From NCBI RefSeq assembly GCF_000379725.1, contig NZ_KB903633.1, positions 1 through 64,000 on the forward strand: a DNA stretch of 64,000 bases. Direction: 5' to 3'. This stretch comes from Cytophaga aurantiaca DSM 3654. Lineage in GTDB: Bacteria; Bacteroidota; Bacteroidia; Cytophagales; Cytophagaceae. Below are positions 31,312-56,822 of this stretch, in pieces. The translations under genes were made by a program, and so were the position numbers. The notes below the pieces were generated by a model. The model did not search any database and had not been told where the DNA came from. It worked only from the letters and a program-made list of their open reading frames with translations. Position 1 is the stretch's first letter; each line of letters begins with the position of its first letter.

Positions 31312-31830
31312 ATGGTTAGAATTGTATTAATATTATCCTGTTTATTATTTTCATCGGCTTTCGTGTCAACAGATGGCACACAATTTTCATGGTCAAGCAG
31401 CCGAAAACTAACATGGGCTGATTTTAAAGGCAAACCTGATAAACTTAACCCCGCAGCCGCTCTTACTTATTCGGATATTAAAATAGGCGCTTCCTATATT
31501 GATGGAAAAGTAGCTGTTCAAGTACAAAACTTCTTTGATACAAAATTATCCTGGTCAAAAAATAAAACCTCGGTGCCATTGCTTGCTCATGAACAAGTAC
31601 ATTTCGATATTACAGAAATCTACACAAGAAAGATTCGTTTAAAATTAAATGTCATTGCTTCTGAAGAAACAATTCGAAACGGGACATTAAATAAAGAGTC
31701 TTCGATTTTATTAAAGGAATGGAAATCGTTTCAAAAAAAATACGATGACGAGACAAATCACGGAATACTAGCAGCTAAGCAGAAAGAATGGCAAGAGCAG
31801 GTTGCTGCATTATTAAAAACAATTCAATGA
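31312..31830 (+). CDS. Secreted DUF922-like putative zinc protease
   Basis: The 172-residue protein has a signal peptide (about 1-18) followed by a single domain. The opening SSSRKLTWADFKGKP and the HExxH-type motif HEQVHFDITEIY (about residue 92) are typical of DUF922 proteins, predicted secreted Zn-dependent proteases. Near the end, TNHGILAAKQKEWQ is also a family feature. Substrates are unknown. Its TGA overlaps the ATG of a 7TMR-DISM histidine kinase (ATGA), so the protein may act on or regulate that sensor's periplasmic domain. This is inference. Confidence 0.75.
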   Translation: MVRIVLILSCLLFSSAFVSTDGTQFSWSSSRKLTWADFKGKPDKLNPAAALTYSDIKIGASYIDGKVAVQVQNFFDTKLSWSKNKTSVPLLAHEQVHFDITEIYTRKIRLKLNVIASEETIRNGTLNKESSILLKEWKSFQKKYDDETNHGILAAKQKEWQEQVAALLKTIQ

Positions 31831-33773
31831 AATTAAAACTATCCGATATATTCTATACCATTAAACGATTCAATGAAGGATCATTGTTAACGCTTTTTTT
31901 TCTTTTATTTTTACTTACATTCAATTTTAATAGTGCGTATGGCAAAGCACCTCTGGTACTTACCAATAATAAAAAGATTTTAAAAATAGACAGTAGTGTG
32001 GCATACGGATGGGATCCCTCTAGTGGGCAAACACATTCATTAAAAACAAAATACTTTACAAACACGGATCCAAAACAAAGTTACTGGTATACATTTAAAC
32101 TTTCCAATCCCAATAATGAAAGTAAAACATGGTATATGGTTTCTTACAATTTTACAATCAATGAAATTGATTTGTATGAAAATGATCCAGCCAATTCAAT
32201 TGCAGCAATTCATAGAGATACCATTAATCTTAGTAACCGGCTAATTAATCATAAGCAGCCAATTTTTATTATTAAACTTAAACCCAATGAAACGAAACAG
32301 TTTTACTTGCGGCTAAAAAATGAGTCGGCTTTTTATTATGAGTTTGCTGTATATACTCCCGAAAATTTTGCAACATCATTCTTTAATGAATATTTAGCCT
32401 TTGGGTTATTCTATGGCTTCATGGCTTTCGTATTGATTTACAATATTTTTTATTATTCGATCTTAAAAGAAAAGGTAATTCTGTTTTATTGTTTATTTAT
32501 TATAGCACAGATCATGCATATGCTGTATCGCGATGGAACAGGGCTATTCCTGACTCCGGACTTAACAGCACATTCGGAAATATTGAAAAATATCGGACGT
32601 TGTGCGGTTAGCATTTTCATGTTACTGTATACCTACAATTATTTTAAAACATCAAATAATCGGATTGTATATACGATCATTAAAGTTATTATTATAGTAC
32701 GTCTTGTCTATGCAATAGTCATGATTCAGGATAATACACTCAACACATTTCATTTTGAATTATTTACGTTGGTATTTTGCACTGCGTTTTCAATTTATTC
32801 GTATAAGAAAAATAACAATCCGGATACGATCTATATGGTTATTGGTTTAAGTCTGTTGACGTTCAGTTATATTATTTATTATCTCTCTGTAGTGGCTATA
32901 AGTAGTCTTAGTGGCTTTGGTTTTTTCATTTTATATTATGGAATTGCAGCAGAAAGTATTTTTATGACCTTAGCCCTGGCTGAACGTTTCAAAAGAATCA
33001 AACTCGAAAATATTTCGACACTCCAAATGAATGCTGAGCTGGAGCAGATCATTAAAAAAAGAACCTCTCAAATAGAAGAAAAGAATAAATTATTGGAAGT
33101 TAAATCTGAAGAACTAAATCTATTTTTATATAGTGCTTCTCACGATTTAAAAGGTCCGTTAAAAACGATTGAAGGCTTATGTAATCTTGGGATAGCAGAT
33201 GATGAATCAGATCAGAAAAAATTATTTGAATTGATCCGAAAGAAATTATATAATCTTGAATCAAATATTTCAGATTTAAATTCTGTAACTAAAATTCAAA
33301 ATGAAGATACACCGTTTGTTCTTATTGATTTTACTGAGCTTCACAAACAAATCTCTGAACGTTACTTAGGAGACAATGAAATTCAAAAAGATCAGATATA
33401 TTTTCAAAATAAACTTTCTGAGCCATTTATTTCAGACGCTTTTTCAATTAAAACCATCTATCAGAATGTCTTTGAAAATGCTTTAAAATATAAGGATGTT
33501 TCTCGAAAGTTACTTCTTGAGATCAAGATTGAAGATTATACAGACTATATTAAAATTTCATTTAAAGATAATGGACTTGGTATTCCCGAATCCATTCTTC
33601 CCAAAATATTTAATATGTTTTATAGAGGAAATTATGAATCAAAAGATGATACAGGCCTTGGATTGTATATAGTTAAAAAGGCAATCTTAAAAATAGGCGG
33701 GACAATTGATGTATCCAGTCAGGAAGGCATTGGTACTGTATTTGAAATAGTCCTGCCTAGAATTTCTATGTAG
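31827..33773 (+). CDS. 7TMR-DISM hybrid membrane sensor histidine kinase
   Basis: The 648-residue kinase is laid out as a signal/N-terminal segment, a periplasmic 7TMR-DISMED2-like domain (about 45-180, including SYWYTFKLSNPN and WYMVSYNFTINEIDLYEND), seven membrane helices (about 195-395), a short coiled coil, HisKA with phospho-acceptor His439 (SASHDLKGPLKTIEG), and HATPase_c (N box YQNVFENALKYKD, G box NGLGIPESI, GLGLYIVKKAI). The periplasmic domain resembles a carbohydrate-binding jelly roll in this family. I set the start at 31827 (ATGA overlap with the DUF922 gene). No response regulator is adjacent. The sensor half is paralogous to the protein at 50661-52613. Confidence 0.92.
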   Translation: MKLKLSDIFYTIKRFNEGSLLTLFFLLFLLTFNFNSAYGKAPLVLTNNKKILKIDSSVAYGWDPSSGQTHSLKTKYFTNTDPKQSYWYTFKLSNPNNESKTWYMVSYNFTINEIDLYENDPANSIAAIHRDTINLSNRLINHKQPIFIIKLKPNETKQFYLRLKNESAFYYEFAVYTPENFATSFFNEYLAFGLFYGFMAFVLIYNIFYYSILKEKVILFYCLFIIAQIMHMLYRDGTGLFLTPDLTAHSEILKNIGRCAVSIFMLLYTYNYFKTSNNRIVYTIIKVIIIVRLVYAIVMIQDNTLNTFHFELFTLVFCTAFSIYSYKKNNNPDTIYMVIGLSLLTFSYIIYYLSVVAISSLSGFGFFILYYGIAAESIFMTLALAERFKRIKLENISTLQMNAELEQIIKKRTSQIEEKNKLLEVKSEELNLFLYSASHDLKGPLKTIEGLCNLGIADDESDQKKLFELIRKKLYNLESNISDLNSVTKIQNEDTPFVLIDFTELHKQISERYLGDNEIQKDQIYFQNKLSEPFISDAFSIKTIYQNVFENALKYKDVSRKLLLEIKIEDYTDYIKISFKDNGLGIPESILPKIFNMFYRGNYESKDDTGLGLYIVKKAILKIGGTIDVSSQEGIGTVFEIVLPRISM

Positions 33774-44498: not shown

Positions 44499-46970
44499 TT
44501 ATTGCTTAACAATTTTACCATTTTGATTCAATCCATTTGAACCTGAAATGTTATAGTAATAAAGACCAGGATTTAATTGTTGAAGAGAAAGAGTCGTATC
44601 ATTTTCTGATGCAATATTCTTCGAAAGAACCAATGTACCACTTACAGAATAAATATTTATTCGAACATTTCCGTATGATCCTGAAAAGTTAATTCTAATA
44701 TTTTCATTTGTTGGATTAGGATAAATAGTCACTGGATTTGTCGTGGTAGTCGCTGCAATACCAGTAGTAACTGTTGACACAGCCGTTCTTAATATGATAT
44801 TATCTCGTGTTAGATCTTCTTCAACATATTCACCAATTGTTTGTGAAACCATATTCGTAATAATTGCAGAGTTATAATCGAAGAAAATACTCGCTTCATT
44901 TTTAATCAATTCTCCATCAGATAATGTAGGTTTTGCAGAAATTGAAAATGTAATAAAGCCTTGCGATTTAATACTATCTATTTTTTTAGGAGTTAAGTTG
45001 ATATTGGCAAAGTGGAATTTAACGACTTCTTTACCTTGAACATGAATTCTTTCAATAGAATAAGGATGACTTGCACTGCCTGCTACGAAAGTTGTAGCAT
45101 CCAGGTCTGCATCAAGTGTATCAACAACTACAACTGAATAAGCATCATCTGAACCTGTATTTTCAAAGCGAATTTTATATGTAAGCCTCGTACCTGCACT
45201 TATGTAATTTTTGCTTGACACGCCTTTGGGAGACACTGCTTTATCATTGGGATCATAACTATCCGATATCTGTATACACGATGTAGAGGTTACTAAATCA
45301 TTATTTTGAGGTACATTCATTGCAATACCTTTATAAGCTGTTTTTAATGCCGCTTGTGAAGAAACACAACCTTCAAATATTACCCTCGGTATTGTATTGT
45401 AATCCGGATGATTTGCTACCTGATCTGCTTCTAATCGAATTACTTTTCCACTAGTTGGCAATTCTACTTTAAAATATTCCATAGACTTCAATGCAAACTT
45501 ATGATTCGAAATTAATGTATCATTTGCATATACTCTATATCTGGTGCTGTCTGACATGTCACCATTTCCTTCATTCAGAATTGTAAATTTAGCAACTCCA
45601 TTCGTACAAGCTCCCTTAACAACAACATCGGCATTGTCCCAATCATTAGACACATTGATACAAATATTGCCTGGAGAAATAGATGCTTGAGTACATTGCG
45701 TTAAAAAACGAATACTCTCATTACCACAAATAACAGAATCTATGATTGTAATTGTTTTAGTAGCATAAGCCACTATACTTCCAACTGAATAATACAACGT
45801 ATCTCCATTTTTTCTAGTCCAGGCCGGCACACTGCTTATTGGTTTTACATACTGCGGATAAACAATTTTAACTTGTGCTGGCTGGGAACTAACATTACCT
45901 GCATTTTGATAATTTACCGTAGTAACACTATTAAAACAACGTCTTCTTCGATTGCTATTAATATCTATTTTTAAAATAGCACATTGTTTAATTTTTTGAG
46001 AAAAATCATTGCAGCAATAATTAGATTTACCTTTAGGTGTAGATACCGTAAAAACCCCTGTAGATGGACATATTTTTTCCAGTAACTCAAGTTCAAGATT
46101 TGTAGGAGTGTAAGAGATGCTGTATGAAGTATGTAAGGTGTCAACTTTTAATTCATAAAAACCATTTTCATCTGTGTATGCATAATATGGGCCAGGCAGA
46201 GCTGTTACCAAGCCCTGTTTTACAGGTGCATCTCCTGAATTTAATATACAGTTGGCGTTATTATCATTGAAAATATGTCCTGAGATAGTATTGAAAGACC
46301 AATCGACATAGCTACCAAGTTGAATGTAATCTATTTCTAATTTGAGCGGTTTTATATCCGTAACAGGTGATTCAAATTCGACATAAAAATCAAAGCCTGA
46401 AATTGCCGAAGAATCAACAACCGTCATTGGCGAACTTCGAAAATCTCTCCAGCTGTTATTAAAATTGAAATAGTAGTCTTTATATTCATTTGTGGGGCTT
46501 ATAGTGAAATAGGATGCTCCATTTAATGTTATGTTTCCTAATGTATCCATTAATTTAATATAGATATTCTTTGGAGTTAATGAGCCGGTAGATTTCAGCC
46601 GGATTTTCATATTCATATTTTCCGGCTTACTCATATCTATTGAAGTAGCTGGAGTTAAAAATGGTCGTACCCAAAATCTATTTTGCAAAAAGCCTACATA
46701 ATCATATGTATGGTTAACAACAACATAACCCGTAGGGGATGGTTCATAATCATCTTGTCCTTGAAAAGTCAATCCATCATATGACTCGCTCTTTATGAAC
46801 AATGAATCGTTTGGTGATACATTGGAATAATCAACCCAATATCCGGTTCCTGTGTTATTGTGGGATCCGAAATCAATATAATAACCGGTCTTGTTATAAA
46901 GAAGCTGTGCATGAGCATGCTGAAACATGCACAAAAATAATATGCCGAATAAAAATTGAATTCTTTTCAT
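44499..46970 (-). CDS. Secreted T9SS type A protein with SdrD B-like and DUF11-like modules
   Basis: The 823-residue protein has a signal peptide (about 1-21, ending AHAQ) and an N-terminal beta-rich domain (about 25-225). An SdrD B-like Ig module follows (about 228-290: ISGHIFNDNNANCILNSGDAPV, YTDENGFYELKV), then a strand-rich middle and a DUF11/DUF7619-like module (about 575-710: AGTRLTYKIRFENTGSDDAYSVVVVDTLD). The T9SS type A tail begins IYPNPTNENIRIN. It is probably a surface or secreted adhesin-like protein. No catalytic motif is seen. A long perfect hairpin ends its transcript. Confidence 0.85.
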   Translation of the reverse strand: MKRIQFLFGILFLCMFQHAHAQLLYNKTGYYIDFGSHNNTGTGYWVDYSNVSPNDSLFIKSESYDGLTFQGQDDYEPSPTGYVVVNHTYDYVGFLQNRFWVRPFLTPATSIDMSKPENMNMKIRLKSTGSLTPKNIYIKLMDTLGNITLNGASYFTISPTNEYKDYYFNFNNSWRDFRSSPMTVVDSSAISGFDFYVEFESPVTDIKPLKLEIDYIQLGSYVDWSFNTISGHIFNDNNANCILNSGDAPVKQGLVTALPGPYYAYTDENGFYELKVDTLHTSYSISYTPTNLELELLEKICPSTGVFTVSTPKGKSNYCCNDFSQKIKQCAILKIDINSNRRRRCFNSVTTVNYQNAGNVSSQPAQVKIVYPQYVKPISSVPAWTRKNGDTLYYSVGSIVAYATKTITIIDSVICGNESIRFLTQCTQASISPGNICINVSNDWDNADVVVKGACTNGVAKFTILNEGNGDMSDSTRYRVYANDTLISNHKFALKSMEYFKVELPTSGKVIRLEADQVANHPDYNTIPRVIFEGCVSSQAALKTAYKGIAMNVPQNNDLVTSTSCIQISDSYDPNDKAVSPKGVSSKNYISAGTRLTYKIRFENTGSDDAYSVVVVDTLDADLDATTFVAGSASHPYSIERIHVQGKEVVKFHFANINLTPKKIDSIKSQGFITFSISAKPTLSDGELIKNEASIFFDYNSAIITNMVSQTIGEYVEEDLTRDNIILRTAVSTVTTGIAATTTTNPVTIYPNPTNENIRINFSGSYGNVRINIYSVSGTLVLSKNIASENDTTLSLQQLNPGLYYYNISGSNGLNQNGKIVKQ

Positions 46971-49898: not shown

Positions 49899-50672
49899 AT
49901 GAAACCTGCATTATTTAACAACCAAAAGCATTGGCAATTTGATTCATTCAATAAAATAACATCTGTAAGGCATCTAGTCACGGGATCAAATTTGCATATT
50001 CAAAGAGGAGATATTGAAGGATTGAATTATGGATTGAATGTACCTGACCAGACAAGTGTTGTACACAATAACCGACTTGAGTTATTAAATCATTTAGATA
50101 TAGTAGATGGTTTTGTAACATTCCCAATACAAACACATTCTTGTACAGTTGAAATTGTGACAGAAGAAAATAAAAAAGCTACATTCCAAGACGTAGATGC
50201 ATTGATTACAAATACCCCCAATATATTAATCGGAGTATTATCTGCAGATTGTGTTCCTGTATTATTAGCAGATCCTGTTACTAAAGTTGTTGCTTGTATC
50301 CATGCGGGCTGGAGAGGTACTACAGCAGAAATAGTCAAACATACAATTTCCAAAATGCAACTGGAATTTGGTTGCATTTCCAGCAACATCATTGCCGGTA
50401 TTGGACCTTCAATTTCTGCTGCCAACTATGAAGTAGGTGAAGACGTTGCCATACATTTCAGAAGTGTCAGTAAAGAGAAATTGCCCAATGGCAAATCATG
50501 TATTGATCTATGGATAGAAAATAAAATGCAGCTCCTTGAAATGGGTTTAAAAGAAGAAAATATTTCCATCAGTAAGCTATGTACATATTCTGATCCAACT
50601 GCATTTTATTCAGCAAGAAGAGATGGTATTACAACAGGCAGAATTGCTTCTGTAATTGCATTAGTGGCTTAA
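49899..50672 (+). CDS. pgeF: Peptidoglycan editing factor PgeF (YfiH/laccase-domain family)
   Basis: The 257-residue protein has the family's metal-site motifs: PIQTHSC, VLSADCVPVLLADP with conserved Cys, CIHAGWRGT with His, and GIGPSISAANYEVG. Homologues include YfiH/PgeF, which removes misincorporated Ser-containing muropeptide precursors, and purine nucleoside-active enzymes. It is co-directional with the DUF4412 pair, and overlaps the 3' end of the convergent 7TMR gene by 12 bases. Confidence 0.92.
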   Translation: MKPALFNNQKHWQFDSFNKITSVRHLVTGSNLHIQRGDIEGLNYGLNVPDQTSVVHNNRLELLNHLDIVDGFVTFPIQTHSCTVEIVTEENKKATFQDVDALITNTPNILIGVLSADCVPVLLADPVTKVVACIHAGWRGTTAEIVKHTISKMQLEFGCISSNIIAGIGPSISAANYEVGEDVAIHFRSVSKEKLPNGKSCIDLWIENKMQLLEMGLKEENISISKLCTYSDPTAFYSARRDGITTGRIASVIALVA

Positions 50673-52613
50673 CAAGTCATCCCAGCGAACAACAGTACCT
50701 TTAGATTTAGACTTTAATAATTCGTAAGAGCTTTGTATTTTTTTACGGAATGCCCAAACGGTATTTTTATTCAAGCTTAATAATTCAGATAATTCCTCAA
50801 GTGTCTTCGATTTCCCTGATCGGATCGTATCATAAACAATATAAAATGCCTTATCCATTGGGATTCGAATTCCGTGGAACAATGTTTCAGCAGTTACGCT
50901 TTCAACATGTTTACAAGACGTACACTTACGCGTAAAAGGAGAGGTGTGTGTAATGTATTTATCATGACCACATTTTTTACATACAAATCCGTTGCTCCAT
51001 TTTATATTTTCTAAATAACGCATACAACTTGCATCATCCGGAAATAACTCTTTAAATTTTTCTGTACTTAATTCTTCATCAGACAATCGGGCTTTTACTT
51101 CCTCTTGTACTTTTTGTTTCAATTGCCAGTTATCTAAATCCAGCTTAATATTCATTTGATTTAAGTCTTCAACCAATTTTGAAAGATTCGAATTGAAAAT
51201 GCTTAACTCTTCCGATTTTTCCCGCAGATCTTTTGTACGCGTTGCAACTTTTGATTCTAATTCTTTATTAACACGATCCTGAATTATTTCTTTTTCTTTT
51301 AATTCACTGATCAATTCATTTTTCAAAGATTCATTTTCTACTAATTGAGCAATTGCCTGTTGCTGCAATACTTCACGCTGAATACGTTCTATTTTAAAAC
51401 GATCACTCAATGCAATGGATAAGATCACAACCTCTATCATAAAGCCAAAATTGAAACTATATACTGCAAATAATCCAAAGCCTTCTGGTACTAAATCAAA
51501 AATTCTGAACAAGTAGATAATAAAGCTTATGATGATCATTGTATAAGCTAAAATAAAAAAACGGGCAAATTTTTCACCTTGAAAATAAATTTTAAAGGAT
51601 GCTATATAGATCAATAAGAAAGGTAATAAGAATACAAACTGATATACCCGCTGCGAATCCAATACAAAGCGCTCAATAAAATAAACCAATATATATAACA
51701 GATAAGCACCAATTATAACACTCTTAAATGATTTGGCCGTCCTGTTTATTTCCAGAAATGAAAATGAATATATAATAAACGCCGACAACAGAAGTATCGG
51801 AGTGAATAATGAAACCAGAATATTTATAAATGGCACATTCGGCCATAAGTATTGGAAACCTAATCCATCTTCAGAAAACGAATTAAATGCACAACACAAG
51901 GCATAAATCACATAATATATATAGACACGATCCCTTGTATTAAAAAACAGGAATAAATTGTAAATGGCCATGATCAACAATACCCCATAATACAAGCCAA
52001 GTAAAACATATTCGGTTAATGCATACCCGGTGAAATGAATTTCTTCGCGAACAGAAGTAGAGAAACCAGCATAATTGGCAGAATTAATCAATACATAAAA
52101 TGTTCGAATACTATCCTTAGGCAGATTCGTTTTAAATAAAAAGTTTTTATGCTGATACTCCTTATTTGAAAAAGGGTACGAAAAACCAACTGTTTTTAAT
52201 GTTTCATAATGCCCGTTTCGATCTTGACGGAAAAATTCAATTTTTGAAATATGTGGATCTGGTAATTCGATTAGCCAATTTTTATGTTCATTCTGATTTT
52301 GAAGTTTAAATCTTAGCCAATAGTTTGCATTCAATGTTTCGGTATAAAATTTATCATCTGCAATTTTTAAAAACTTTGAATCATATTTCCCTGATAAAAT
52401 TTCCTCTGAACTGACTTTATTTGAAGTATCCTTAAATATATATACTTCATTGGTAAACAGAGGAATTTGATTTTTATCATTTAATTCAACTATTTTCTGA
52501 GCATGCAAATCTATGTTTATTGCAAATAAAACAAAGATAATAACAAAAAAACGAATGGTGGTACTAAAGCAATAAATCACGTATGATATAGTTATAAATA
52601 TATTGATAGTCAA
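50661..52613 (-). CDS. 7TMR-DISM membrane sensor fused to IS1595-type zinc ribbon and HTH
   Basis: The 650-residue protein has a signal segment (about 17-39, ending LHAQ), a 7TMR-DISMED2-like periplasmic domain (about 50-190: NYWLRFKLQNQNEHKNWLIELPDPHISKIEFFR) and seven membrane helices (about 205-410). A long coiled coil follows (about 415-520). The C-terminal 128 residues read like the N-terminus of an IS1595/ISXO2 transposase: FPDDASCMRYLENIKW, zinc ribbon Cys545/548 and Cys564/567 (CKKC, CTSC), TAETLFHGIRIPMDKAFY, and an HTH (LEELSELLSLNKNTVWAFRKKI). No DDE nuclease domain and no kinase domain follow. Translation must start at a TTG (52613) or GTG (52580); no ATG exists before the signal. 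Confidence 0.88.
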   Translation of the reverse strand: MTINIFITISYVIYCFSTTIRFFVIIFVLFAINIDLHAQKIVELNDKNQIPLFTNEVYIFKDTSNKVSSEEILSGKYDSKFLKIADDKFYTETLNANYWLRFKLQNQNEHKNWLIELPDPHISKIEFFRQDRNGHYETLKTVGFSYPFSNKEYQHKNFLFKTNLPKDSIRTFYVLINSANYAGFSTSVREEIHFTGYALTEYVLLGLYYGVLLIMAIYNLFLFFNTRDRVYIYYVIYALCCAFNSFSEDGLGFQYLWPNVPFINILVSLFTPILLLSAFIIYSFSFLEINRTAKSFKSVIIGAYLLYILVYFIERFVLDSQRVYQFVFLLPFLLIYIASFKIYFQGEKFARFFILAYTMIIISFIIYLFRIFDLVPEGFGLFAVYSFNFGFMIEVVILSIALSDRFKIERIQREVLQQQAIAQLVENESLKNELISELKEKEIIQDRVNKELESKVATRTKDLREKSEELSIFNSNLSKLVEDLNQMNIKLDLDNWQLKQKVQEEVKARLSDEELSTEKFKELFPDDASCMRYLENIKWSNGFVCKKCGHDKYITHTSPFTRKCTSCKHVESVTAETLFHGIRIPMDKAFYIVYDTIRSGKSKTLEELSELLSLNKNTVWAFRKKIQSSYELLKSKSKGTVVRWDDLLSH

Positions 52614-52636
52614 CAGTAATTAGTGGTAACAAGTTA

Positions 52637-52669
52637 CAAATTTATGAGTCGAAATTCCAACAAAACAAA
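52637..52669 (-). promoter_or_regulatory. Promoter of the 7TMR-zinc ribbon gene
   Basis: On the minus strand TTTG (52669-52666), 21 bases, then TAAATTTG (52644-52637) is a perfect Bacteroidota promoter. The transcript would start near 52630, so initiation at TTG 52613 or GTG 52580 is consistent. Confidence 0.8.
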
Positions 52670-52747
52670 CAATTATTTTACTTATTTACCCTACAAATGG
52701 AACACAATAATCAGAAATTCGGTATAATTGTTTAAATGCTAAGAAAT

Positions 52748-55282
52748 ATGAAAAAAGTAGGTTTAATTATTACGATTTTACTAAGTTCTATTTTATCAAT
52801 GGCTCAAACAGGGGTTGGAGATGATTTTGAAAGTGCAACAGCTCCCGGACTTACAACAGGATGGACGGAAAATAAACCTCTATATGCAGTTCAAACAATA
52901 GAGACAACCGCTCCTACAAATACTCAGTTATATACAAAATATACTATTACAGCAACCAATTATAGTGGGTTTGCTTATGCATTTTCTTCCATAAATATGG
53001 CAGATGCTCCATTTGTTACTGTTAAAATCAAGACAGGCGCTTCATTTACATTACGTATTGATTTAATAGATGCTAACGAACGAAGAACCAATCAAATAAA
53101 TACGACACAGGTTATCAAAAATGATAATACGAAGTATTATGATTATCTATTTGATTTTACTGGTCGATTTTATCAGCAATACGGAACGAATAACGGCCCT
53201 GTAGATGCGACTCAAATCAAACGAGTTGAATTTATTATAACTGCACCTTCTACTGGAACGTTTTTAATGGACAGTGTAATGGTTGGCACACGCGCTAAAA
53301 CAAATATAACATCCGGAGCAAAAGGTATTAAATTAAATCAATTAGGTTTTTTGAAAGAAGGGCCTAAAAAAGCGGTTGTGAATGGTGGTAATGCTGGTGA
53401 TTTCTACATTGTAACAGATGATTTATCAGATACCGTTTATACAGGTACTTTGTCTGCAGCAAAAACTTGGAGTTATTCAAGTGAATCTGTTCGTATTGCA
53501 GATTTTTCTAATTTTAAAGTTCCCGGTAAATATAGAATGCGGGTACCTGGTGTGCCTTCGCCTTCGTATCCTTTTATAATCTCAGAAACTACTTTAAATG
53601 GTATATCTAAGGGAAGTATTAAGGGCTTTTATTATCAAAGGGCTTCTATGGCATTGACCGCACCGTATGCAGGAACCTGGGCAAGAGCTGCAGGGCATCC
53701 TGACAATCAGGTATTGATCCATAACTCTGCAGCTTCTCCTGGAAGAGCGACGGGATCTAAAATATCTTCTCCTAGAGGATGGTATGATGCAGGTGATTAC
53801 AATAAATACATCGTAAACTCCGGTATTAGTACGTATACATTATTAGCTTCTTATGAACATTTCGGAACCTATTATGATACACTAAAACTGAATATTCCGG
53901 AAAGCTCAAATTCCATTCCGGATGTATTGGATGAAGCACTGTATAATGTTCGTTGGATGTTAACAATGCAAGACCCTTATGATGGAGGTGTATATCACAA
54001 ATTAACGAATGCCAATTTTGATGGAGATGTAATGCCAAATGCTGCAACGTTGCCTAGATATGTTGTTCAGAAAGCAACAGGGGCAACCTTAGATTTTGCT
54101 GCTGTAATGGCACAGTCTGCGCGTATCTTTGCACAATTTTCTACGCAGTTACCAGGATTATCTGATTCATGTATAGTAGCTGCAAAAAAAGCGTATGATT
54201 GGGCAATATTAAATCCATCAATTTTTTATAATCAGGATGTATTAGCTAATCCTGCTATCACTACAGGAGGCTACGGCGATTATAGTTTTGCCGATGAAAA
54301 AAGCTGGGCTGCAGCAGAATTGTACACTACAACACGATTGACACAATATTATTCAGACATTAATTTATCATCTGGAGCAGACCTACCAGGATGGCAAAAT
54401 GTAAATACATTAGGCTTGATAACATTGGCTCATAATAGTGGTAATTTAAGTGCACCGTCCGATTTAAACACCGTAAAAAATAAGATCATCGCACTAGCTG
54501 ATGGATATAAAAATGAAGCATTAACTACATCTGCTTATGCAGTAGCAATGGGAGCTAATAGCGGGAATTTCGGATGGGGTAGTAATTCAGTTGCAGCAAA
54601 TCAAGCATTCATTTTGATTCAAGCTTTTAATTACACCAAAGACAGTTCTTATTTAAAAGCTGCAGTATCAAACGTAGATTACCTATTAGGAAGAAATGGT
54701 ATCAATTATTCGTTTGTAACTGGTTACGGCAGTCTTGCATCTAACAATCCACACCATAGAGTATCTCAGGCAGATGGTATAGCAGCAGCTGTACCGGGCT
54801 TATTGGTGGGTGGACCGAATCCAGGTCAGCAGGATAATTGCCCTGGTTATCCATCATCCCAGGCAGCCTTATCTTATGTAGATACAGATTGCAGTTATTC
54901 AACAAATGAAATTGCCATTAACTGGAATGCTCCATTGGCTTATATTACCGGTGCAGTACAAAGCATTTATTCAGGCATTGAACCTACAGCAAAAGATAAT
55001 ATCGTAGATATACCAACATCTACCAGATCTGCAGTAATGCAAAATATTACAATAAAATTATATCCAAATCCAACATCATATTTGTTGAATGTTGAGAAAC
55101 CATTTGACTTGATTGAAGCTCCGGTTGTGTTAGACCTAAATGGTTTAGAATATACTATTTCAGGTGACTGGTCTGGAAATACAATTCAGATTAATACAGC
55201 ATCTTTACAGGCAGGAATGTACCTAATCCGCCTGCAAGGAGAAAACGGGGCTGCTGTTCAAAAATTTACCGTGACTAAATAA
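52748..55282 (+). CDS. Secreted GH9 endoglucanase with T9SS type A tail
   Basis: The 844-residue protein has a signal peptide (ending SMAQ), an N-terminal carbohydrate-binding-like beta domain (about 25-180), a CelD-type Ig-like domain (about 195-280: IKLNQLGFLKEGPKKAVV) and a GH9 catalytic domain (about 285-740). Its signatures are DAGDYNKY (Asp347/Asp350), NPHHRVSQADG (His669/670) and the catalytic acid Glu721 in CSYSTNEIAINWNAPL. The tail IKLYPNPTSYLLNVE is a type A T9SS signal. It should cleave cellulose at or outside the surface. The ATG at 52748 (MKK) is preferred to 52736, since a TATAATTG -7-like element ends at 52730. A sugar permease follows. Confidence 0.93.
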   Translation: MKKVGLIITILLSSILSMAQTGVGDDFESATAPGLTTGWTENKPLYAVQTIETTAPTNTQLYTKYTITATNYSGFAYAFSSINMADAPFVTVKIKTGASFTLRIDLIDANERRTNQINTTQVIKNDNTKYYDYLFDFTGRFYQQYGTNNGPVDATQIKRVEFIITAPSTGTFLMDSVMVGTRAKTNITSGAKGIKLNQLGFLKEGPKKAVVNGGNAGDFYIVTDDLSDTVYTGTLSAAKTWSYSSESVRIADFSNFKVPGKYRMRVPGVPSPSYPFIISETTLNGISKGSIKGFYYQRASMALTAPYAGTWARAAGHPDNQVLIHNSAASPGRATGSKISSPRGWYDAGDYNKYIVNSGISTYTLLASYEHFGTYYDTLKLNIPESSNSIPDVLDEALYNVRWMLTMQDPYDGGVYHKLTNANFDGDVMPNAATLPRYVVQKATGATLDFAAVMAQSARIFAQFSTQLPGLSDSCIVAAKKAYDWAILNPSIFYNQDVLANPAITTGGYGDYSFADEKSWAAAELYTTTRLTQYYSDINLSSGADLPGWQNVNTLGLITLAHNSGNLSAPSDLNTVKNKIIALADGYKNEALTTSAYAVAMGANSGNFGWGSNSVAANQAFILIQAFNYTKDSSYLKAAVSNVDYLLGRNGINYSFVTGYGSLASNNPHHRVSQADGIAAAVPGLLVGGPNPGQQDNCPGYPSSQAALSYVDTDCSYSTNEIAINWNAPLAYITGAVQSIYSGIEPTAKDNIVDIPTSTRSAVMQNITIKLYPNPTSYLLNVEKPFDLIEAPVVLDLNGLEYTISGDWSGNTIQINTASLQAGMYLIRLQGENGAAVQKFTVTK

Positions 55283-55445: not shown

Positions 55446-56822
55446 ATGGCTGGTGGTGCCCCAATAAATTTTTCATCCAATAACTCCGCATCTGATCCAA
55501 AAGCGAATTATACTCCAGCAATTGCTTTAATGGCAACGCTGTTCTTTGTAATTGGCTTTGTAACCGTATTGAATGATGTGCTTATTCCCATCATGAAAAA
55601 TACTTTTCATTTTGAAAAAAATGAAAACTGGAAATTAATGTTGATTCAATTCAGCTTTTTTATGGCTTATGGATTGTTATCCATTCCTTCAGGAAATCTG
55701 ATCAAAAAAATCGGTTATAAGCAAGGTACCATATATGCTTTATTTATTGTAGCCATAGGATTGCTATTATTTTATCCTGCATCAGAATATAGTTCTTATG
55801 GGTTGTTCTTACTCGCATTATTTATTGTCGGCAGCGGATTTGCGCTTCTTCAGGTTGCTATTAATCCGTATTTAATTGCATTAGGAACACCTGAAACCGG
55901 CGCAGCGAGATTAAATCTGGGTGGTGCATTAAATTCAACAGCAACATTCATTGGCCCGATATTTGGTTCGTTTTATTTATTAAACGAATGCTTGATGACT
56001 GAAGCAGAAACACTCGCTACAACACGTACTTTGTATGTTGCAATCGCTTTATTGATCATAGCAATTGCTGCATTCATGTTCTTTATGAAACTTCCAAAAC
56101 TTTCCATTGAAAATGAAAAAGACGAAGTTCTCTCTGGTAGTATTTTTCAATTCAATCATCTGATCTATGGCGCATTTGCAATCTTTTTTTATGTTGGAGC
56201 AGAAGTTGTAATCGGCAGTTTGCTGGTTGTATACTTAAAATCAGACACAATGGGAAATATTCCGGAAAAGTTTGCAGCGAACCTGGTAGCATATTACTGG
56301 GCAGGTGCAATGATCGGTCGTTTTATAGGCAGTAAGATCACACAAAAAATTGCCCCTAATAAAGCCTTAGCTTTTGTTGCAATTGCAGCGTTTGTATTGA
56401 TCTTCTTAAGCATGACAGACATCATGATTAACAGCAGCATTACAGTACCTGTTATAAACATGGGAGAAGATTGCAAGACCTTAGAGTTTTATTTTAATTT
56501 CAAATCACTAACTGTTCCACTTGCAGCAATGTGTTTGATTCTTATCGGCCTATTCAATTCCATTATGTGGCCAAGCATTTTCCCATTAGGCATTGCACGT
56601 CTGGGAAAATATACCAGCCGTGGATCCGGATTAATGGTTACAATGGTCGCAGGAGGAGCATTTGTATCTTTACTGCAAGCAATATTGGCTGATCAGATTG
56701 GCTATCGCTACAGCTTTGCATTGTGTCTGGTTTGCTATGCGTATATAGCGTTCTTTGCATTAAAAGGCTACAAGCCGAATAAAGTCGCAGACAACGAACA
56801 AGGAGAAATTGTTGAAGTGTAA
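55446..56822 (+). CDS. MFS sugar permease of the FucP/GluP family
   Basis: The 458-residue protein has about twelve membrane helices. Signature features are MATLFFVIGFVTVLNDVLIPIMKNTF in helix 1, AYGLLSIPSGNLIKKIGYKQG, ALLQVAINPYLIALGTPETGAARLNLGGALNS (highly conserved in glucose/galactose and fucose:H+ symporters) and NSIMWPSIFPLGIARLGKYTSRGSG. It probably imports glucose or a related hexose across the inner membrane. Its position directly after a GH9 endoglucanase fits uptake of cellulose breakdown products. The palindromic terminator between them means separate transcripts. Confidence 0.92.
   Translation: MAGGAPINFSSNNSASDPKANYTPAIALMATLFFVIGFVTVLNDVLIPIMKNTFHFEKNENWKLMLIQFSFFMAYGLLSIPSGNLIKKIGYKQGTIYALFIVAIGLLLFYPASEYSSYGLFLLALFIVGSGFALLQVAINPYLIALGTPETGAARLNLGGALNSTATFIGPIFGSFYLLNECLMTEAETLATTRTLYVAIALLIIAIAAFMFFMKLPKLSIENEKDEVLSGSIFQFNHLIYGAFAIFFYVGAEVVIGSLLVVYLKSDTMGNIPEKFAANLVAYYWAGAMIGRFIGSKITQKIAPNKALAFVAIAAFVLIFLSMTDIMINSSITVPVINMGEDCKTLEFYFNFKSLTVPLAAMCLILIGLFNSIMWPSIFPLGIARLGKYTSRGSGLMVTMVAGGAFVSLLQAILADQIGYRYSFALCLVCYAYIAFFALKGYKPNKVADNEQGEIVEV

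Follow-up and report, generated by a model that had tools for sequence, protein, structure and literature searches.

The window analyzed here comprises 64,000 nucleotides of the Cytophaga aurantiaca DSM 3654 genome (contig NZ_KB903633.1, positions 1 to 64,000). On its minus strand, an uninterrupted open reading frame spans positions 50661-52613 and encodes a membrane sensor fused to a transposase-like tail. The initial annotation had read this frame from a TTG codon at 52613, a start that was ruled out by orthologue comparison. The sequence GTGATTTAT, at codon 12 of the TTG-numbered frame, is common to all three Cytophaga orthologues, and a stop codon just upstream closes the frame in the other two; for these reasons the translation start is almost certainly the GTG at 52580, giving a coding sequence of 639 codons (50661-52580, minus strand). 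The frame is continuous from sensor to tail in the orthologues, which ruled out a frame error joining the two. On the plus strand, the divergent gene (52736-55282) encodes a GH9 endoglucanase-type enzyme with a T9SS tail (PF00759, E 1.4e-80), as had been proposed, and is followed by a gene for an MFS transporter (55446-56822, plus strand; MFS_1, 9.2e-22), an arrangement also supported by synteny. The intergenic region between regulator and GH9 gene (52581-52735) is the presumed operator region, judged by its position and by alignment of the three Cytophaga species. Upstream of the GTG it contains a short inverted repeat, TTGA-N3-TCAA (52603-52613), that is kept in all three species with the third copy imperfect; this repeat may be an operator, but as a candidate that could also have arisen by chance. 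The window locus contains only the GH9 and MFS genes, with no SusC-SusD pair next door. Elsewhere in the window, an 823-amino-acid secreted-type protein (44502-46970, minus strand) corresponds to two separate open reading frames in genome G002 (L123:3736-6214, minus strand) and was not found in the stretch of G001 examined.

The domain organization of the 639-residue protein was examined by Pfam searches and AF2 modelling. A signal peptide (residues 1-27; 52500-52580, minus strand, as for all features of this gene), with a predicted helix at residues 2-21 and cleavage placed by inspection after ..DLHA, precedes a periplasmic 7TMR-DISMED2 sensor domain (residues 44-173; 52062-52451; PF07696, E 1.5e-25 to about 1.6e-25) and a 7TM domain (residues 190-394; 51399-52013; PF07695, E 3e-44 to about 3.1e-44). 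These are followed by a cytoplasmic helical or coiled-coil linker (residues 395-501; 51078-51398; predicted helices 375-448 and 459-501) and by an IS1595-type zinc ribbon (residues 514-558; 50907-51041) that matched PF12760 (Zn_ribbon_IS1595) with an E value of 1.2e-10 and 41.6 bits against a cut-off of 25.4. The four ribbon cysteines, correctly numbered Cys545/548/564/567 from the TTG, are Cys 534, 537, 553 and 556 when counted from the GTG. A three-helix HTH-like segment (residues 575-625; 50706-50858), placed by the tail model and co-linear with the transposase HTH, and a C-terminal stretch with a W-[DE]-x-[LI]-[LI] motif (residues 626-639; 50664-50705) complete the protein. No further Pfam domain was identified; HisKA, HATPase_c and DDE_Tnp_IS1595 were all absent. 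In the full-length model, a signal helix led into a beta domain and then seven membrane helices; the last of these extended into the cytoplasm as a long helix and was followed by another linker helix and the compact tail. Modelled alone, the tail reached a pLDDT of 90.7 and folded as two N-terminal helices, a three-strand ribbon and the three-helix HTH-like segment, closed by a short helix at the C-terminus. A PDB fold search with the tail returned no match at E <= 0.001, and its HTH part bore a weak resemblance to solved HTH proteins (2ao9, MarR family). The profile matches and models thus agree with the architecture first proposed, and place a sensor and a predicted DNA-binding-type domain in one membrane polypeptide with neither kinase nor DDE domains.

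To trace the source of the tail, it was compared with IS1595 transposases. Over its whole length the tail aligned with the N-terminus of the IS1595 transposase encoded in the same genome, and a closer transposase from Bacteroidota was 44% identical to it over 117 residues (E 5e-35). This closer relative contains DDE_Tnp_IS1595 (8e-20), a domain matched by the true transposases L052, L060 and P0004. The homology ends about where the DDE domain of the transposases starts, namely at the C-terminal stretch of the window protein, which is not itself a transposase since it lacks any DDE_Tnp_IS1595 match. All four cysteines were invariant in 55/55 tails, and no fused protein in a larger set lacked the motif; the loss of cysteines in orthologues was not seen. 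Among the Cytophaga orthologues the tail was the most conserved segment (83-90%, versus 48-56% for the sensor). A tree of 106 tails, built by a quick method from a short alignment of 135 columns, grouped fused and stand-alone Bacteroidales-type tails apart from transposases. When long branches were removed, the 55 rows of fused tails and five stand-alone tails made up one side of a branch with an SH-aLRT of 95.8, and a single clade of fused tails alone was not rejected (p 0.72). The tree is unrooted, and because more distant IS1595 transposases, the genome's own among them, fall outside the regulator-tail group, a change from transposase to regulator is the simpler direction; a single domestication of the tail from an IS1595 transposase is the simplest reading of these sequences. 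A leftover of a recent IS insertion was ruled out, since the tail has multiplied, is conserved and occurs in several families. It is extremely improbable that the tail recognizes the ends of a resident IS1595 element and represses or guides its transposition: the homology to IS1595 transposases and the presence of one true IS1595 transposase in the genome fit such a role, but that transposase sits on a distant IS1595 branch of the tree, and the fused family is expanded, occupies a fixed position in the genomes of three species and shows a link to carbohydrate genes.

The initial annotation had considered a single protein; the survey of homologues replaced this view with that of a large and old family. 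Two more fused genes were identified in the C. aurantiaca genome, and tails were present in 19/19 genomes searched of the same family, the richest of which encodes about ten full-length fusions. A scan of 84,980 species yielded 80 kept loci, all in Bacteroidota. Fusions were seen in Cytophaga, Algoriphagus, Cyclobacterium, Lunatibacter, Flammeovirga, Sporocytophaga and others, and, among 395 sampled Bacteroidota genomes, also in two further families of the class. When full-length members were aligned (n = 43), the 7TM domain was matched in 43/43, DISMED2 in 41/43 and the zinc ribbon in 37/43 at 1e-3. One locus of genome G004 (L129:4958-8669, minus strand) carries two fused regulators in tandem together with a GH81 gene, and at L018:1838-8176 a fused regulator adjoins a 1415-amino-acid protein of TPR-CHAT protease type.

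The sensor half had been described as the same as that of a histidine kinase in the window (31788-33773), in which Pfam identified HisKA and HATPase_c. Homology was borne out (E 4e-23), but identity was just 24% over 447 amino acids, in an alignment that runs through the coiled coil. Fused and kinase-type sensor halves were interleaved in a tree, and a single clade of fused sensors was rejected (p-AU 1e-9) when these were compared with 19 other 7TMR-DISM sensors, mostly kinases, in a data set that includes long branches. This ruled out one fusion followed by duplication alone. Because of this rejection, output domains have probably been swapped among 7TMR-DISM sensors more than once, a case that the long branches weaken.

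Stand-alone versions of the tail were found in Bacteroidales. At loci L044, L066 and L102/L127, from three genomes, a free tail of ~140 residues is divergent from the same methyltransferase gene, and, where checked, genes for a radical SAM protein and for a thioredoxin-reductase fusion are close by. Conserved divergent pairing with a neighbor typically marks a local regulator and therefore supports DNA binding by the tail. The methyltransferase is ArsM-like, and these loci (L044:8906-10426, L066:9099-10426, L127:1197-6728) may be concerned with metalloids or redox. A second, more distant stand-alone family of IS1595-like zinc ribbons was observed in Cytophagaceae (L168:1739-2176 and L169:1610-2119, both minus strand), with proteins of about 145-170 amino acids and the motif TTLRSGTxLxGSKLP; weak matches of similar size occur in other Bacteroidota. 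Since stand-alone versions exist in Bacteroidales, the tail can probably work alone, as it would have to if regulated proteolysis freed it as a transcription factor and the membrane part were a mere store. We regard this route as unlikely, given that neither a cleavage site nor a dedicated protease came to light and that the linker is of the same helical type as in 7TMR-DISM histidine kinases, is aligned throughout with that of the window kinase by BLASTP and is conserved at 80-83% among the Cytophaga orthologues. A kinase-like helical linker suggests conformational signalling instead.

We also examined the gene neighborhoods of the family. Carbohydrate-active genes adjoined fused genes in 21/111 cases and kinase-type 7TMR-DISM genes in 2/77 (P = 4e-4), counted among adjacent genes in one and the same search whose query enzymes had been picked from fused-gene neighbors, which favors the fused set. 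Among divergent genes, 12/31 were carbohydrate-active compared with about 10/131 control genes at a distance of three to four positions (6/131, to which Pfam added two alpha-amylases and a debranching enzyme); genes for these neighbor counts were called by a simple script, so that some small open reading frames may be spurious, and some loci are related. The upstream neighbor was divergent for 31/56 fused genes versus 6/39 kinase-type genes (P = 7e-5). In the three Cytophaga genomes the regulator is divergent from the GH9 and MFS genes within overall synteny, and because the whole region is syntenic this adjacency counts as one case; in the nearest other genus (L014) the divergent gene is again a GH9. 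One C. aurantiaca paralogue is divergent from a GH64/GH5/CBM6 protein, and other members from GH16-CBM6, GH5-CBM6, GH64-GH5-CBM6, GH81, GH97, GH3, PF10091 (GH144-type) or CBM proteins. Further members adjoin a GH18, GH9 or CE2/deacetylase gene, and members from Cyclobacteriaceae have SusC, SusD, a LamG protein and a PF10091 (GH144-type) enzyme downstream.

The link to polysaccharides proposed at the outset thus gained support from recurring carbohydrate-active neighbors of many distinct paralogues. Beta-glucans are the substrates of most of the neighboring enzymes, which makes fragments of these polymers the likeliest signal that can be deduced from the gene content. It appears quite unlikely that these neighborhoods reflect the mere CAZyme richness of the genomes and that the regulator controls unrelated functions. 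Cytophagaceae are indeed CAZyme-rich, with 189 CAZymes in C. hutchinsonii (PMC6247017), and many family members have no carbohydrate gene next door; however, such genes were far fewer beside kinase-type 7TMR-DISM genes and three to four genes away from the regulators.

Zinc ribbons frequently serve in protein contacts, and no shared operator motif or palindrome was found upstream of 63 members. Both points would suit a tail that serves as a protein-interaction or structural zinc module, does not bind DNA and controls motility, secretion or a kinase partner. This is a very doubtful reading, as the HTH is retained with the ribbon in the order found in DNA-binding transposases, stand-alone relatives are divergent from a conserved gene like classical regulators, and divergent orientation is enriched among fused genes.

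Taken together, the profile matches, models and neighborhoods are best read, with good confidence, as a transcription regulator of the one-component, membrane-tethered type that governs polysaccharide use through a transposase-derived output, in line with the initial annotation. We infer DNA binding, the ligand, the target, the direction of control and the choice between action in place and action after proteolysis. The periplasmic 7TMR-DISMED2 domain would sense a signal, probably an oligosaccharide from the breakdown of beta-glucan or cellulose, and the 7TM bundle and coiled coil would relay it in the manner of the sister histidine kinases. In the cytoplasm, the zinc ribbon and HTH, from an IS1595-type transposase minus its DDE domain, would bind DNA and control adjacent polysaccharide-degradation genes. 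The GH9 gene is a likely target here, and the MFS transporter gene a possible further one.

The window protein has the signal peptide, 7TMR-DISMED2, 7TM and helical linker in common with known 7TMR-DISM receptors, but these end in an enzymatic signalling output (histidine kinase, GGDEF or others) where it carries a transposase-type zinc ribbon and HTH. With IS1595 (ISXO2-type) transposases it shares the order of ribbon and HTH and up to 44% identity in the compared pair; unlike them, it lacks DDE, is fused to a receptor and is fixed at one site in three species. Members from Cyclobacteriaceae resemble the regulators of Bacteroidota PULs (SusR, hybrid two-component systems, ECF sigma/anti-sigma pairs) in their placement beside SusC-SusD and glycoside hydrolases. 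No Bacteroidota PUL regulator is known to combine this sensor with this DNA-binding domain. ChiS, a DNA-binding transcription factor, belongs to a family that likewise ties a C-terminal DNA-binding domain to sensors, some of them 7TMR-DISM; that domain is a cryptic HTH variant reported in proteobacteria and is neither a zinc ribbon nor transposase-derived (PMC8092284). Searches of the open literature by fusion, Pfam family and locus tags returned no earlier description. Domain-architecture databases may show the fusion, and the 2003 paper that reportedly defined 7TMR-DISM could already mention it.

The complete 4,433,218-bp genome G002, which is probably C. hutchinsonii as judged by its size together with its GH9 gene order, contains seven GH9 genes in an order matching CHU_0961, 1280, 1335/1336 and 1655. 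Because of this match, the GH9 gene divergent from the G002 orthologue is very probably CHU_1655. The CHU_1655 enzyme has been reported as abundant on filter paper; efforts to disrupt the gene yielded no viable mutant, so that CHU_1655 'and/or its genetic neighborhood' may be essential (PMC6247017).

On comparative grounds, the receptor family with a transposase-derived output is real, old and expanded, and its regulatory role for polysaccharide genes is likely. We lean towards a receptor class of Bacteroidota, mainly Cytophagales, in which an IS1595 output was domesticated once, swapped onto several 7TMR-DISM sensors and multiplied, and which would control polysaccharide genes including the Cytophaga cellulase locus reported impossible to disrupt. 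A transposase DNA-binding module would thus have been domesticated as the output of a membrane receptor and then fixed and multiplied in one lineage, widening the list of DNA-binding domains in one-component systems by a transposase-derived zinc ribbon and HTH. Little is understood of the way in which contact-dependent degraders of cellulose, Cytophaga among them, detect insoluble polysaccharide and react to it, and the regulator beside CHU_1655 is directly testable.
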